Assembly: GCF_008000935.1 (NCBI RefSeq)
Contig: NZ_CP042831.1
Span: forward strand, 558,001-622,000
Reading direction: 5' to 3'
From: Flavobacterium alkalisoli
GTDB taxonomy: Bacteria; Bacteroidota; Bacteroidia; Flavobacteriales; Flavobacteriaceae
Length of the DNA stretch: 64,000 nucleotides
Shown here one piece after another: positions 5,237 to 31,134 of this stretch. The notes beneath the pieces are model-generated. The model was not told where the DNA came from. It saw only the letters and a program-made list of their open reading frames with translations, and ran no database searches. Within the stretch, counting starts at the first letter, position 1; every line of letters starts with the position of its first letter. A program made the position numbers and the translations under genes.

Positions 5237-6400
5237 TTACTGTAAATTTTCAATTACTAATGCAGAAGCTCCTCCGCCTCCGTTACAAATTGCAGCAACA
5301 CCATATTTACCGCCTTCCTGTTTAAGTACCGATAAAAGCGTTACCACTATCCTTGCTCCCGATGCCCCTATAGGGTGTCCCATAGCCACACCACCTCCAT
5401 AAACATTTATCTTATCCATATCTATATCCAGAATTTTACTGTTTGCCAGTATTACTGCAGCATAGGCTTCATTAATTTCATAATAATCAATATCCTCTTT
5501 GGTAAGTCCTGCCTGCTCTAACGCTTTAGGAATAGCTATTGCCGGCGATGTGGTAAACCATTCGGGTGCCTGGGCAGCATCTGCATAACCTTTAATCTTT
5601 GCCAGTGGTTTCAGGTTATACTCCTTTACCATTTCTTCAGAAACTAATAATAAGGCAGCAGCTCCGTCATTAAGGTTACTGGCATTAGCAGCTGTAATAG
5701 TACCTCCTTCTTCAAAAACAGGTTTTAGTTTGGCTACCTTTTCCGGAATAAGTTTATAAACATCCTCGTCTGCCGAAATTGTCGTTCCATTAACCGTAAC
5801 CGGGATTATTTCCTTATTAAACTTACCCTGACTAAATGCTGTTGCGGCCTTTTCATAAGACTGTAAGGCATAAGCATCCTGATTTTCCCTTGACAGATGG
5901 TATTCCCTGGCACAAATCTCTGCCGCGTTCCCCATGTGAAAGCCATTGTAAACATCGGTCAGGCCATCTTTTAATAAACCGTCTATAACTTCCGTATTAC
6001 CAAGTTTGGTGCTCTTGCGCTGGGTTATATAGTGGGGTACATTACTCATGCTTTCCATTCCTCCTGCCACAACCGAATTATCAGCCCCCAACTGTATTTG
6101 TTGGGCTCCTGTGATAACAGCCTTTAGCCCCGAAGCACATACCTTGTTTATCGTTGTGGCATCTGCCTCAACCGGCAGTCCGGCAAATACTGCCGCCTGC
6201 CTTGCGGGAGACTGACCTAAATTTGCCGATAGCACATTTCCCATATACACAGAGTCTACCTTGTCTTTTGGAAACTCTATTTCATTCATTATACCCTCAA
6301 TGGCAATTTTACCTAACTCCGTTGCGGTAAAACCCGAAAGGCTACCTAAAAACCCGCCTATTGGGGTTCTTTTTGCAGCCACTATAAATACATCTCTCAT
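5237..6400 (-). CDS. Acetyl-CoA C-acyltransferase (thiolase)
   Basis: A 387-residue thiolase with all three catalytic residues: nucleophile Cys88 (INKVCASGLKA), His342 (VAMGHPIGASGAR) and Cys372 (AICNGGGGAS). It either condenses two acetyl-CoA or cleaves 3-ketoacyl-CoA; sequence alone does not settle the direction. It is the first enzyme gene after the TetR regulator. The 49-bp gap between them holds a perfect ATACCAATCGGTAT palindrome identical to the one in the tetR promoter, so it is probably repressed by that regulator. Confidence 0.92.
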   Translation of the reverse strand: MRDVFIVAAKRTPIGGFLGSLSGFTATELGKIAIEGIMNEIEFPKDKVDSVYMGNVLSANLGQSPARQAAVFAGLPVEADATTINKVCASGLKAVITGAQQIQLGADNSVVAGGMESMSNVPHYITQRKSTKLGNTEVIDGLLKDGLTDVYNGFHMGNAAEICAREYHLSRENQDAYALQSYEKAATAFSQGKFNKEIIPVTVNGTTISADEDVYKLIPEKVAKLKPVFEEGGTITAANASNLNDGAAALLLVSEEMVKEYNLKPLAKIKGYADAAQAPEWFTTSPAIAIPKALEQAGLTKEDIDYYEINEAYAAVILANSKILDIDMDKINVYGGGVAMGHPIGASGARIVVTLLSVLKQEGGKYGVAAICNGGGGASALVIENLQ

Positions 6401-6417
6401 AATCTTATTTTAATTTT

Positions 6418-6431
6418 ATACCAATCGGTAT
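6418..6431. promoter_or_regulatory. TetR-type operator before the thiolase gene
   Basis: ATACCAATCGGTAT: inverted arms ATACC/GGTAT with a 4-bp spacer, identical base for base to the site at 7070-7083. It lies 18 bp upstream of the thiolase ATG, inside the gap after tetR. Confidence 0.75.
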
Positions 6432-6449
6432 ATTTTAGGATAAAAAAAT

Positions 6450-7043
6450 TTATATCGCTAGTTCATCAATTATTTTTTTGGCATGATCCATCGCTGCATT
6501 AAGCGTATTTGTTTTGCCGGTAACCTTAACCAGCATAACGCCTCCTTCTATAAGTGCCACAAGTACCCACCCAAAAGCAGTTGCATCAACATCAGGTTTA
6601 ATAATACCGCTTTTTTTACCGTCGTTTATTACCTTAACAATACTGTCGTGCCATTTTCTTATGGCAGTAACTACATTATCACGCAGGTCTACATGTGTAT
6701 CATCTACTTCTGTTGCCGAATTAAGCACAGGACATCCCCAACGCAATACAGGGTTCTCTGTAAAGTCTGAAAAAACACTAATATATATTTTTAGTTTTTT
6801 AATCGGGTCGGGCTCATTATCCCTTTTCTTCTTTATCCATTTAGACAGCAATCCGAAATTATAATTAAAGGCAGCAATAGCCACTTCGTCCTTATTTTTA
6901 AAGTTACCGTATATGCTTCCTTTGGTTAATCCGGTAGCCTCAGTAATATCAGAAAGAGAAGTTCCGGCATATCCCTTCCTGTTAAAAATAGGTGCCGTTT
7001 TTTCAATTATAAACTGTCTTGTCTTTTCTGCTTTAGTCATCAT
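6450..7043 (-). CDS. TetR/AcrR-family transcriptional regulator
   Basis: A 197-residue regulator with the TetR N-terminal helix-turn-helix (IFNRKGYAGTSLSDITEATGL...KGSIYGNFKNKDEV, about residues 15-55) and a helical ligand domain. The C-terminal half resembles the YcdC/NemR-like subgroup. It heads the leftward operon with thiolase, thioesterase, FabF-like synthase and SDR. A palindrome sits inside the 19-bp spacer of its own promoter and again before the thiolase, so autorepression plus operon repression is expected. The inducer is likely an acyl-CoA or related compound, by analogy only. Confidence 0.9.
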   Translation of the reverse strand: MMTKAEKTRQFIIEKTAPIFNRKGYAGTSLSDITEATGLTKGSIYGNFKNKDEVAIAAFNYNFGLLSKWIKKKRDNEPDPIKKLKIYISVFSDFTENPVLRWGCPVLNSATEVDDTHVDLRDNVVTAIRKWHDSIVKVINDGKKSGIIKPDVDATAFGWVLVALIEGGVMLVKVTGKTNTLNAAMDHAKKIIDELAI

Positions 7044-27099: not shown

Positions 27100-27660
27100 T
27101 TATTTTTTATCGTGATAGCGTTTTAAAACTCTTCTTTCCATATTATCATCAGGCCAAATTTCTATCTTATAATAATCATTGTCTGTTTTGTTTGCTAAAT
27201 CTCGTTCTTTTACACTATCTAGATTTATTGAGTAAACGCGCACTTTATATTTTCCTGGCTTAATATGTTTTGTATACTCAACTAAACTACTTGGACAGTC
27301 TAAAATCTGAATTTTACCAGATTCAACATTTATTCCAGCTTCAACTATATGGTCATATAAATCATAGTCAATATTGTTAACCGCTGTATCAATAAAAACT
27401 AACTCTCCTTTAACATATCCATAACACTGAGTATAGACAATTAAAGAATTTTTATAGGATTGAAGTCTATCTTCGTAACCTTCATCATCTGAACCTTCAT
27501 TTGATAGTAGTTCTTTTATATTATCGCTAGTTATTAAAAATTGATTATATTCTGTATAAAATTCAAATCTATTTTCCATATTTTCTTTTCTATATAATTT
27601 ACATTGAATTAATAAAATACAAGACGTTAAAATTAAATATCTTATTGTTTTTAATAGCAT
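27100..27660 (-). CDS. Small protein behind the Rhs toxin; candidate ComJ/Nin-like immunity protein
   Basis: 186 residues. The N-terminus (LLKTIRYLILTSCILLIQC) looks like a lipoprotein or export signal, with a weak lipobox at IQC. An in-frame ATG at 27579 (MENRFEFYTEY) preceded by a purine-rich stretch would give a cytoplasmic 159-residue form. The body is a beta-rich domain (EYNQFLIT, SYKNSLIVYTQCYGYVKGELVF, GINVESGKIQILDC, IKPGKYKVRVYSIN). Its order of motifs recalls ComJ/Nin, the inhibitor of the Bacillus DNase NucA: a YxQF strand, a G.xVES strand and a PG.Y strand. As the Rhs protein 33 bp upstream ends in a NucA/NucB-like domain, it is a good immunity candidate. The similarity is from memory of the family and needs a profile search. 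Confidence 0.55.
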   Translation of the reverse strand: MLLKTIRYLILTSCILLIQCKLYRKENMENRFEFYTEYNQFLITSDNIKELLSNEGSDDEGYEDRLQSYKNSLIVYTQCYGYVKGELVFIDTAVNNIDYDLYDHIVEAGINVESGKIQILDCPSSLVEYTKHIKPGKYKVRVYSINLDSVKERDLANKTDNDYYKIEIWPDDNMERRVLKRYHDKK

Positions 27661-27693
27661 ATTTTATTTTTTTAAACGTTAAATTTTGAATTC

Positions 27694-30600
27694 TTAAGGT
27701 ACAGGAATTAAATTTCTGGCAGGAACCAACCTTGTTGTTTCTGATACTATAAAATATAATAGAAGAGCCGTTCCTGATAAACCAGTAGCTTCTCCCACTC
27801 TATCATAAAATGAACTGTCTGGGTTTGGCACAGGCACAGTATATTGCACAGGTTTACTAACAGGGTCGGGTAGAGCCTCTCTTCCTTTACCTTTTGGAAC
27901 AGGAAAGACTAAAAAAGCATCACCTGATTCAAGGGTATTATATAGTCTTTGTAAATCTTGCCCTTGTTTATTATTCTCTTCTCTTGGAACATAAGTCACA
28001 GCAGCTCCTAAACCTCCTTCAATTGTTGAAGCAAAAGGGTATTCATCTCTTTGCATACCTGATGGAGGGGAAGGAAGAACTTTTGTTGCATGATACCTTC
28101 TCCTAGCTTTAGCTTTTTTGTCAGAGTCATAATGTAATACAGATGGTTTTCCTTGCATAAAAGCGTTTAAAGTATGTCTATAAATATTTGGTGTCTCTCC
28201 TTCGGTAACAAAATGTACACCTTTAAATTTTTCTTTCTTATTTAATTGATTCTTTATTATGTTGTAAGCAATCCCAGCATGTATTCCTGTGAACTGAACA
28301 CCTCCTTTAATATTAATTATATCTCTTCCATCTGGGTCTTTAAAACTTATAGGATTATTAATACAGTAATTATAAGGTGAAAAAGATACATATTTTTCAG
28401 CAAGCGGGTCAAGATTCATCCATCTCCCTATTGCAGGGTCATAATTCCTTGCTCCATAATCGTACATGTTAAGCCCCAACTCGTCTTGCAGCTCCTTACC
28501 GTTGTACTTATACTTATTCTTATTGGTTTCTAAATCATTGTAGCCATTATGCCTTAACCCAAAAGGATAATAGTGACTTTCTTCGATTTTCGTAATTGAT
28601 GTTATGCCTCCTCTACCCGCTGCTCCATAATATTTCATCCTTACATTACCCAGATGATCGGTATAATTATAGATATATTTATATGTACTTGTACCGGAGG
28701 AAAGAGTATGCTCAATATAACCTTCTGCCGTAGGGAAACTCTCTAAAACCACATTTTTATATTGAAAACCAGAAAGATAATCGGTAGTGGTTATAGTTGT
28801 ACCATCAGTTACTGTTTTTTTAAGCTTAACACCATCAGCATCATAAAGGTAATTTATTTTTTTTGAAGTATCGTTATTAAACATAATTTCAACAGGAAGG
28901 TAGTTTGTATTATAAATAATAGAAGTTATTCCTTTATTGGCATCGGTTAAAAGATTTCCAAAACTATCATATGTATATTCATCGGTTACATTGGCACCAT
29001 CCTTAAAGCCCTGTGTGCTGTTTGTGACATCAGTTATTTTGCGAAGCCTGTTTGTGCCACTATAGTAGGTATAAGTGTTATTATCTATTTGTATGGCACC
29101 CGTTGAGGTATCAACACCGCCAAACCTGTCTAAATGCAAGATATTACCATTTTTATCATACGTAATACTTTCATTATAGGCATTGGTAGTTGGAACAGCT
29201 AGATTTGGCCTTTGATAAACAGCTTCTTCAAGTCGGTTTAAATCATCATAACGATAACTGTATTCTCTTAAAACATTGTCGGTATTTGTTCTCCAGTATA
29301 TCTCTGAGATGTTACCGTTGTAAAGAGGTTTAAAGTTGGAATTAGGGGCATTTTCAACCTGGTCATAATTTATCTTTAAAGCAAATAAATCAGTTGGCTG
29401 AAGTAAATTACCAATCAGATTATCAACGTTATTTATGGCTTTTAACCATCCCCTTACATTGTAATCATAATTTATAATCTGTGAAGAAACGCCTGCATAA
29501 TCTCCAACTTCTTTTTTATTCAAACGTCCCAGCTTATCATAGCTGTTTCTGACCAATCTAGTTTCTGTTCCACTGTTTATCTTATGTGTATGGGTATACA
29601 GTCTATCCTGGTCGGTATAAGTAAAATCTTCTCTTACGGTTAACTCTGTATCTCCAGTTACCCTTTTATGACGTGTGTAAGTCGAGATGGGAGTTCCGTC
29701 ATAATCCAGCTGGGTATCCGTTTGTGTATAGCCACCTAAATAATTGTTTGTTCGGGAAAGTATTGGCCTTCCTTTCTCATCATAATATATATAAGTTATA
29801 GATCCGGAGGTGTCAGCAGCGCCAACTAATGCCCTGGTCCAGCTACCGGTAGGTAATGATTTTACCTTTAAAGTAACCGCCTGATTTTCCACAACCATAC
29901 CCTGTGTTGGGGCAACAGCACCATTCCAGGTATAATTATCATAATAATTTACTTTTAGTAGTTTAAGGCCCGGATAAGATATCATTTGCGGGCTTAGCCT
30001 GTAATCTATTGCTATATTATCTACCATCCCCGCTCCTCTTTCAGCTTTATGAAAATAAGTGTCGTACGTCGCCTGAAGATTTTTTCTTATTGTGCTGCTA
30101 AAACCGGATTGCGGAAACCAAGCTATAATTGCCGGCCTGTCATGAGATGTATAAATAGTATAATTCCATCCCGTTTGGGTTTCATCACCTCCAAAAGGCG
30201 ATAAGGCAGGACCTGTGGCTACAACCCTATCTCCCGGATCATACACAATATATTCCCAGGCTTTTCCAGGTAATTTTTTTTCAACAAGCCTGTTTCTTTT
30301 ATCATATCTGTACTGATATCCTAAGTTTGTTAAATAAGTAAATGAACCGTTCATTAATGGAGGCAATACATAACTAAGGTTACCATATTGGTCGTAAACA
30401 TAATAGGTGTCATGAGCGGTACCTCCTTCATAATTCCTTTTAAGCACAAGCTGCCCCTTCATATTTGTAAACTCGACCGTAGTGTTATTGTTACCCGCTG
30501 TCCAGTTTTCATCTTTTGTAACTGTTTTATAAAGCTGGTTGGCAGGATAAGTACTGCTTGAAGTGTAAGTGGTAGTGTAAATCTGATATGTTGAACTCCA

Positions 30601-31134
30601 TATGGCGGTAGCATATAGGTATTTTACAGCATCTGTAGAAGTGTTTAATGAATACACCATTTTTACTGTATGATCGGTATCACTATCGGGGTCTGCCAGC
30701 CAGGTTGTTCCCGGCGCACCTTTTTCAACCGGCCTGTTTAAAGGAGAATGATCATATATTGTTTCACTATATGGGTTTGATGTGTTTTCAAATTCTGTGG
30801 TTTGATAAAAACTAATAACATTTGATAGCGCAGTAGGGTCAAAGTCCATTGCGGAATTGGCAGACTCATATGGCAGGTATTCTTTAGCCGTCCTTCCGTA
30901 AGGATCATATTCCATATGGGTAATGAGGTCTTTCCCGGTTCCTGACATTTTATGGGCAACCTGTTGAATAGGTCTTCCAATACCATCATAGTAAGTTACT
31001 TCAACCCTTGCTTTAGTGGCATCACTGGTTGTTGTTTCCTCTTTATATGTTAGCTTTTTAATATAATTTTGACCTTGAGTTTGTGAAAAGGCAATCAAGG
31101 GCAATAATAAAAATATATATATAAGTTTTTTCAT
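27694..31134 (-). CDS. YD-repeat/Rhs protein (DUF6443) with C-terminal NucA/NucB-like DNase tip
   Basis: A 1146-residue exported protein. Signal MKKLIYIFLLLPLIAFSQ; a DUF6443-like start (VEVTYYDGIGRPIQQVAHK); many YD repeats (YDPYGRTAKEY, YDKRNRLVEKKLPG, YDSFGNLLTDANKG); the Rhs core end YDYGARNYDPAIGRWMNLDP and NPISFKDPDGRD (about residue 933). The variable tail after it carries MQRDEYPFAS (Asp1030, Glu1031), the EGG at ~1039-1041 and a VPREENNKQGQ segment, which follow the DEWP...EGG...N..G pattern of NucA/NucB nucleases. A C-terminal hydrophobic helix lies near 1118-1136. Probable polymorphic toxin acting on DNA; delivery route unknown. Middle gene product of a four-gene operon. Confidence 0.8.
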   Translation of the reverse strand: MKKLIYIFLLLPLIAFSQTQGQNYIKKLTYKEETTTSDATKARVEVTYYDGIGRPIQQVAHKMSGTGKDLITHMEYDPYGRTAKEYLPYESANSAMDFDPTALSNVISFYQTTEFENTSNPYSETIYDHSPLNRPVEKGAPGTTWLADPDSDTDHTVKMVYSLNTSTDAVKYLYATAIWSSTYQIYTTTYTSSSTYPANQLYKTVTKDENWTAGNNNTTVEFTNMKGQLVLKRNYEGGTAHDTYYVYDQYGNLSYVLPPLMNGSFTYLTNLGYQYRYDKRNRLVEKKLPGKAWEYIVYDPGDRVVATGPALSPFGGDETQTGWNYTIYTSHDRPAIIAWFPQSGFSSTIRKNLQATYDTYFHKAERGAGMVDNIAIDYRLSPQMISYPGLKLLKVNYYDNYTWNGAVAPTQGMVVENQAVTLKVKSLPTGSWTRALVGAADTSGSITYIYYDEKGRPILSRTNNYLGGYTQTDTQLDYDGTPISTYTRHKRVTGDTELTVREDFTYTDQDRLYTHTHKINSGTETRLVRNSYDKLGRLNKKEVGDYAGVSSQIINYDYNVRGWLKAINNVDNLIGNLLQPTDLFALKINYDQVENAPNSNFKPLYNGNISEIYWRTNTDNVLREYSYRYDDLNRLEEAVYQRPNLAVPTTNAYNESITYDKNGNILHLDRFGGVDTSTGAIQIDNNTYTYYSGTNRLRKITDVTNSTQGFKDGANVTDEYTYDSFGNLLTDANKGITSIIYNTNYLPVEIMFNNDTSKKINYLYDADGVKLKKTVTDGTTITTTDYLSGFQYKNVVLESFPTAEGYIEHTLSSGTSTYKYIYNYTDHLGNVRMKYYGAAGRGGITSITKIEESHYYPFGLRHNGYNDLETNKNKYKYNGKELQDELGLNMYDYGARNYDPAIGRWMNLDPLAEKYVSFSPYNYCINNPISFKDPDGRDIINIKGGVQFTGIHAGIAYNIIKNQLNKKEKFKGVHFVTEGETPNIYRHTLNAFMQGKPSVLHYDSDKKAKARRRYHATKVLPSPPSGMQRDEYPFASTIEGGLGAAVTYVPREENNKQGQDLQRLYNTLESGDAFLVFPVPKGKGREALPDPVSKPVQYTVPVPNPDSSFYDRVGEATGLSGTALLLYFIVSETTRLVPARNLIPVP

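Follow-up and report, generated by a model that had tools for sequence, protein, structure and literature searches.

Gene arrangement at the Rhs locus

The window analysed here is a stretch of 64,000 nucleotides from Flavobacterium alkalisoli (NZ_CP042831.1, positions 558,001 to 622,000). Its subject is a pair of adjacent genes, encoding an Rhs protein with a NucA/NucB-type nuclease tip and, directly behind it, a ComJ/Nin-like immunity protein (Table 1, numbered by position in the window). The pair closes a run of four genes on the minus strand, which encode proteins of 550, 1152, 1146 and 186 amino acids (aa) and are separated by gaps of 5, 23 and 33 bases. The rest of the genome has one further Rhs-core match, which lies in a short 140-aa frame, and NucA/NucB is matched nowhere else at E 0.001. 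The genome also encodes SprA, a protein of the type IX translocon, which we count in favour of the explanation preferred below. A scan for promoter and terminator patterns found terminators at chance level (6 seen, 5.3 expected) and was not used, and PADLOC gave no match for the three proteins submitted.

Table 1. Features of the Rhs locus in the window (ORF, open reading frame)
Feature	Position	Strand	Remarks
Repeat protein, 550 aa	34622..36274	(-)	Opens the run; carries a type IX secretion sorting domain
Companion YD-repeat protein, 1152 aa	31158..34616	(-)	Precedes the Rhs gene, with a 23-base gap
Rhs protein, 1146 aa	27694..31134	(-)	Sec-type signal, DUF6443, Rhs core, NucA/NucB tip; ORF confirmed
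Sec-type signal peptide region, Rhs residues 1-18	31081..31134	(-)	Judged by eye from the sequence
DUF6443 (PF20041), Rhs residues 28-157	30664..31053	(-)	136.1 bits
Rhs-associated core (TIGR03696), Rhs residues 855-936	28327..28572	(-)	Profile match
NucA/NucB nuclease domain, Rhs residues ~962-1079	27898..28251	(-)	Range from structure match; Pfam range 992-1076
C-terminal hydrophobic segment, Rhs residues 1113-1131	27742..27798	(-)	Follows a proline-rich linker
ComJ/Nin-like immunity protein, 186 aa	27100..27660	(-)	N-terminal signal; ORF confirmed
Export- or lipoprotein-type signal, immunity residues 1-20	27601..27660	(-)	Ends at Cys20, with Gln at -1
ComJ-like core	27103..27579	(-)	Mostly beta; starts at Met28

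The nuclease tip

The initial annotation placed the tail of the Rhs protein in the NucA/NucB family, and profile, sequence and structure all bear this out. Residues 992-1076 match PF14040 with an E value of 4.2e-16 (59.7 bits, against a curated cut-off of 23.8), the tail matches the NucB structure 5OMT by sequence (E 2.2e-6), and structure matching shows that the tip has the NucB fold. His987, Asp1030, Glu1031 and Asn1054 of the tip align with His53, Asp93, Glu94 and Asn117 of BlNucB, which are reported to be required by NucB (PMC5758888). The His and the Asp-Glu pair are unchanged in 8/8 tails, while the Asn is replaced by Gln in L008 and, as judged by eye, in P0064.

Every one of the 11 tips measured ends in a mildly hydrophobic C-terminal segment, and this end sets the NucA/NucB tips apart from 29 other Rhs tips among the matches listed. 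A distant NucA/NucB tip was also seen in the Pseudobacter genome of L015 (L063/L132), on a 2587-aa frame with a proline-rich linker and, by eye, a LysM-like stretch.

The ComJ/Nin-like immunity protein

That the downstream protein is of ComJ/Nin type, as had been proposed, holds in profile-profile comparison and in fold, but not in a direct scan with the Pfam model PF11033. Profile-profile comparison with ComJ gave a probability of 94.7 and a score of 51.9, which none of 150 shuffles reached; a wider alignment from which the Streptomyces member was omitted still gave a probability of 90.9, and the protein has the ComJ fold. Scanned directly against Pfam and NCBIfam, the immunity protein matched no family, the 25-bit cut-off of PF11033 not being reached, and sequence searches of the PDB, with the single protein and with the profile, found no ComJ match.

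A bridge is provided by a protein of Streptomyces spiroverticillatus (L048, 5932-6504), which was recovered with the immunity family by tblastn (1e-6) and by phmmer against the ORFs of the loci retrieved (1.9e-9), and which links that family to PF11033 at 23.5 bits against the cut-off of 25. Elsewhere in that genome the tip is matched twice, weakly and each time with an internal stop. The only match of PF11033 across 296 genomes of the phylum was weak (E 0.0065) and fell in a stop-containing frame of 56 aa; it was not counted. Phage families gave a single match to the immunity protein, at chance level (E 0.027), and a single scan of viral contigs with the single protein found no relative.

Pairing of tip and antidote across genomes

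Forty-nine loci were fetched by the immunity family alone. A tip of the NucA family lies directly upstream in eight of them (L003, L004, L005, L007, L008, L009, L010 and L019) and a tip remnant in one more (L012), the remaining loci being lone copies, tandem extras or fragments. The tip profile was searched in 47 genomes, which account for 48 of the loci (L008 shares the contig of L007 and was not listed): all 8 matches with E <1e-80 coincide with paired loci, and 5 weaker ones are spread over three genomes. The tips are rare in sampled relatives, occurring in 2/395 and 2/397 genomes, with F. alkalisoli itself among the two in both samples. In 5/8 paired loci the toxin is itself preceded by an ORF partly homologous to the companion YD-repeat protein. 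The arrangement is that of a polymorphic pair, with the tip on a conserved carrier, the antidote directly behind it, and the two kept together across genomes.

It might instead be supposed that this is a surface nuclease with its regulator, handling extracellular DNA for biofilm, nutrition or DNA uptake rather than serving as a weapon against other cells. Bacillus NucA and NucB do act on DNA outside the cell (PMC5758888, PMC3482391), the Rhs protein starts with a Sec-type signal, and the antidote signal described below would likewise place the antidote outside the cytoplasm. We nevertheless consider this very improbable in view of the marks of a polymorphic toxin, namely a shared Rhs core with different tips, tandem antidotes (three copies in L005, two in L002), and lone antidotes in tip-less genomes, 37 of the 47 genomes carrying the antidote family having no tip match at E 1e-4.

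It is worth adding some details of individual loci. In L005 (5977-7967) one toxin is followed by three different ComJ-like antidotes in tandem. Lone copies, mostly from Mucilaginibacter, stand at ~5836-6564 beside housekeeping genes, which by eye are acetyl-CoA-synthetase-like in L020 and L031-L037 and signal-peptide-peptidase-like in L017, L018 and L021-L023; this suggests either long-retained orphan antidotes or a new role. A second lone lineage, in Flavobacterium (L038-L045, 5944-6474; 33-36% identity), has no signal and is preceded by the same kind of 137-156-aa gene in 8/8 loci.

The N-terminal signal of the antidote

The immunity ORF starts with a hydrophobic stretch whose last residue is a cysteine, and the export or lipoprotein signal suspected in the initial annotation is upheld by comparison with relatives. 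A strict lipobox has Ala, Gly or Ser before the Cys. Signals were called with a simple pattern and hydropathy script, whose any-signal class takes in membrane-anchor-like starts, in ten paired copies (the window copy, L012 with its remnant and the near-duplicates L007 and L008 included) and in 43 unpaired copies (including two extras behind the L005 pair and several fragments), and the script found a hydrophobic N-terminal segment in 10/10 against 16/43, a segment ending in Cys in 9/10 against 9/43, and a strict lipobox in 6/10 against 5/43. The N-terminal extensions of the paired copies have a mean identity of 0.259 (44 comparisons among 10 copies), the maximum in 500 shuffle sets being 0.192. 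This likeness among paired relatives, beyond the shuffles, supports the view that the signal is more than a chance extension of the ORF.

DNase immunity proteins are usually expected beside the DNA, in the cytoplasm, where chromosomal DNA sits. The antidote could accordingly be cytoplasmic like most of them, with translation from Met28, so that the protein would lack the stretch upstream: the protein-database copy P0001 (159 aa) begins at this Met28, downstream of the signal, and 27/43 unpaired copies, including the lone Flavobacterium and some Mucilaginibacter ones, have no signal. This we regard as unlikely, given that all the paired copies have the in-frame hydrophobic start, with a similarity above every shuffle set, and that export-type starts are habitual, among the matches listed, in genes that follow the other Rhs tips of Flavobacterium (see below).

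A somewhat better case can be made for a signal anchor or a cleaved signal peptide, with the antidote outside the cytoplasm but unlipidated, a possibility that overlaps with the explanation preferred here and that we rate as the less probable form of it. The window copy has Gln before the Cys, the strict lipobox is confined to six of the paired copies, and one copy has no Cys; the difference between paired and unpaired copies in how often the stretch ends in Cys speaks for lipidation.

As to the side of the membrane, acidic residues at +2 to +6 are described as the surface lipoprotein export signal of the phylum (PMC5080379). None of the 9 paired copies with the Cys has one, so that a periplasm-facing location is the better guess.

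Survey of next genes at other Flavobacterium Rhs tips

Among the matches listed, taken best scores first, 32 Flavobacterium regions with frames of ~1,050-1,450 aa were surveyed (L100-L131), the window's own row, G887:C8 (near a contig start) and L132 (outside the genus) not being counted. L130 has no downstream frame in the script, which leaves 31 rows, and export- or membrane-type N-termini were found in 25/31 of the genes behind these diverse tips. L118 and L125 correspond to the ComJ-like pairs at L009 and L010, and dropping them leaves 29 rows. A hydrophobic segment is present in the next gene in 23/29, against 106/288 background genes (Fisher p 1.3e-5), and a strict lipobox in 11/29 against 34/288 (p 7e-4), the background being drawn from loci fetched by the immunity family and hence from several genera. 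Against 54 genes of the window, of which 22 have the segment and 2 a lipobox, the p values are 1.1e-3 and 1e-4. These figures come from a rough script and a selected sample whose rows are not all independent (L103 and L109 seemingly have the same tip and neighbour), and the next genes are candidate immunity genes only, that of L120 being transposase-like.

Proposed mechanism

The explanation we prefer, with a probability of roughly 0.7, is that the locus encodes a toxin-immunity pair of the Tox-ComI/Imm-ComJ type (see below), in which the toxin is an Rhs protein of Bacteroidota exported by Sec and the antidote is also exported, probably with a lipid anchor and facing the periplasm. From the two folds, the pairing, the signal and the hydrophobic end obtained computationally above, we infer toxicity, inhibition, export route, membrane contact and membrane side as follows. 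The Rhs protein would cross the inner membrane via Sec, carrying near its C-terminus a predicted metal-dependent nonspecific DNase of NucA/NucB fold, after which a proline-rich linker leads to the mildly hydrophobic segment that possibly touches the membrane. The ComJ-like protein is predicted to bind and block the nuclease; in this branch it would itself be exported, probably held by a lipid anchor on the periplasmic face, and would stop a nuclease made by the same cell or by a sibling before the DNA is reached.

Several observations weigh against this reading. PF11033 is matched by just 3/30 members of the immunity family, with a best E value of 0.027, far from the cut-off; its search of the F. 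alkalisoli genome is empty even at E 10; and the window copy lacks a Trp kept by at least 90% of the family. A hydropathy of 1.6 is the usual mark for a membrane helix, and the C-terminal segment is only mildly hydrophobic, 4/11 tips reaching that value. The end of the distant L063 tip has just 0.92, and L063 was dropped on this value as a sharer of the hydrophobic end. In the structure model the segment has a predicted local distance difference test score (pLDDT) of <50. Distant NucA/NucB tips adjoin other proteins (DUF6707 in L053, a SUKH-like protein in L055), and no relative of the immunity protein occurs in the fetched stretches of L053, L055 and L063. The correlation between toxin and immunity identities is weak (r 0.33, Mantel p 0.14, 8 pairs), so co-divergence is not significant. 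L007 and L008 nearly duplicate each other and share a contig, the L007 toxin frame being cut by the contig start and the open frame of the L008 toxin being only 225 aa long, and the ten paired copies are therefore effectively nine at most. Finally, the residue at -1 of the Cys in the window copy departs from the strict lipobox, and L003 has a hydrophobic start without a Cys.

A wider proposal can be put forward more tentatively, and we hold it to be somewhat less probable than its opposite: that for the Sec-exported Rhs toxins of Flavobacterium and its relatives, immunity outside the cytoplasm is the rule, even against DNases, and that in the ComJ branch a membrane-touching nuclease meets a membrane-anchored inhibitor at the periplasmic face. 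A meeting there would halt the toxin short of the cytoplasm rather than at its DNA target. Export of the ComJ-like antidote would imply that the envelope is where the toxin has to be countered, with consequences for how Rhs toxins of Bacteroidota get into and out of cells.

Comparison with known systems

As a toxin system, a nuclease-inhibitor pairing of this kind is not new and has been in print since 2012: Zhang et al. (PMC3482391) named the nuclease Tox-ComI, with RHS repeats and Bacteroidetes in their tables, and gave Imm-ComJ as its immunity protein. Their 'Tox-NucA' was considered as the equivalent of Bacillus NucA and rejected, being of the HNH family; the matching entry is Tox-ComI. 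The initial annotation proposed that a competence pair had been turned into a toxin pair; Zhang et al. suggest the opposite direction, with a toxin pair as the ancestor of the Bacillus competence pair (PMC3482391). The present system shares with theirs the competence-nuclease-type DNase toxin domain, the RHS carrier, the occurrence in Bacteroidetes and the ComJ-type immunity. It differs in that the text of Zhang et al. on Imm-ComJ names proteobacteria for the pairing, with no lipobox mentioned there, and in that the ComJ subfamily of the window is missed by the Pfam ComJ model. Titles and abstracts in the collection searched, which lacks most subscription papers, yielded no later work on ComJ as an Rhs immunity protein or on lipoprotein immunity with Bacteroidota Rhs proteins.

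NucA-Nin (ComI-ComJ) of Bacillus subtilis has both folds and the same kind of pairing. There NucA is a stand-alone secreted nuclease, whereas in the window the nuclease is the tip of a large Rhs protein, and Nin, by eye, begins at the core with no export-type stretch, unlike the inhibitor described here. How Nin/ComJ blocks NucA and NucB is given as an open question in PMC5758888, for which the loci reported here offer natural pairs.

Imm65, paired with Tox-JAB-1, is singled out by Zhang et al. as the one lipoprotein among the immunity proteins they collected (PMC3482391). It resembles the present antidote in bearing a lipobox and in belonging to a Bacteroidetes RHS toxin, and differs in the toxin domain and in its alpha+beta fold. 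The TANFOR toxins of Bacteroidetes (PMC7073777) are similarly large, mostly Sec-signal-bearing proteins with variable, often DNase, ends, with the immunity gene behind the toxin and type IX substrates enriched nearby; they are built on TANFOR and not on DUF6443/Rhs, and lipoprotein immunity does not figure in the portion of that account drawn on here. Set beside these systems, what is apparently new at the present locus is the seeming export and membrane anchoring of the antidote, and the hydrophobic end of the toxin, the pairing itself being already known.

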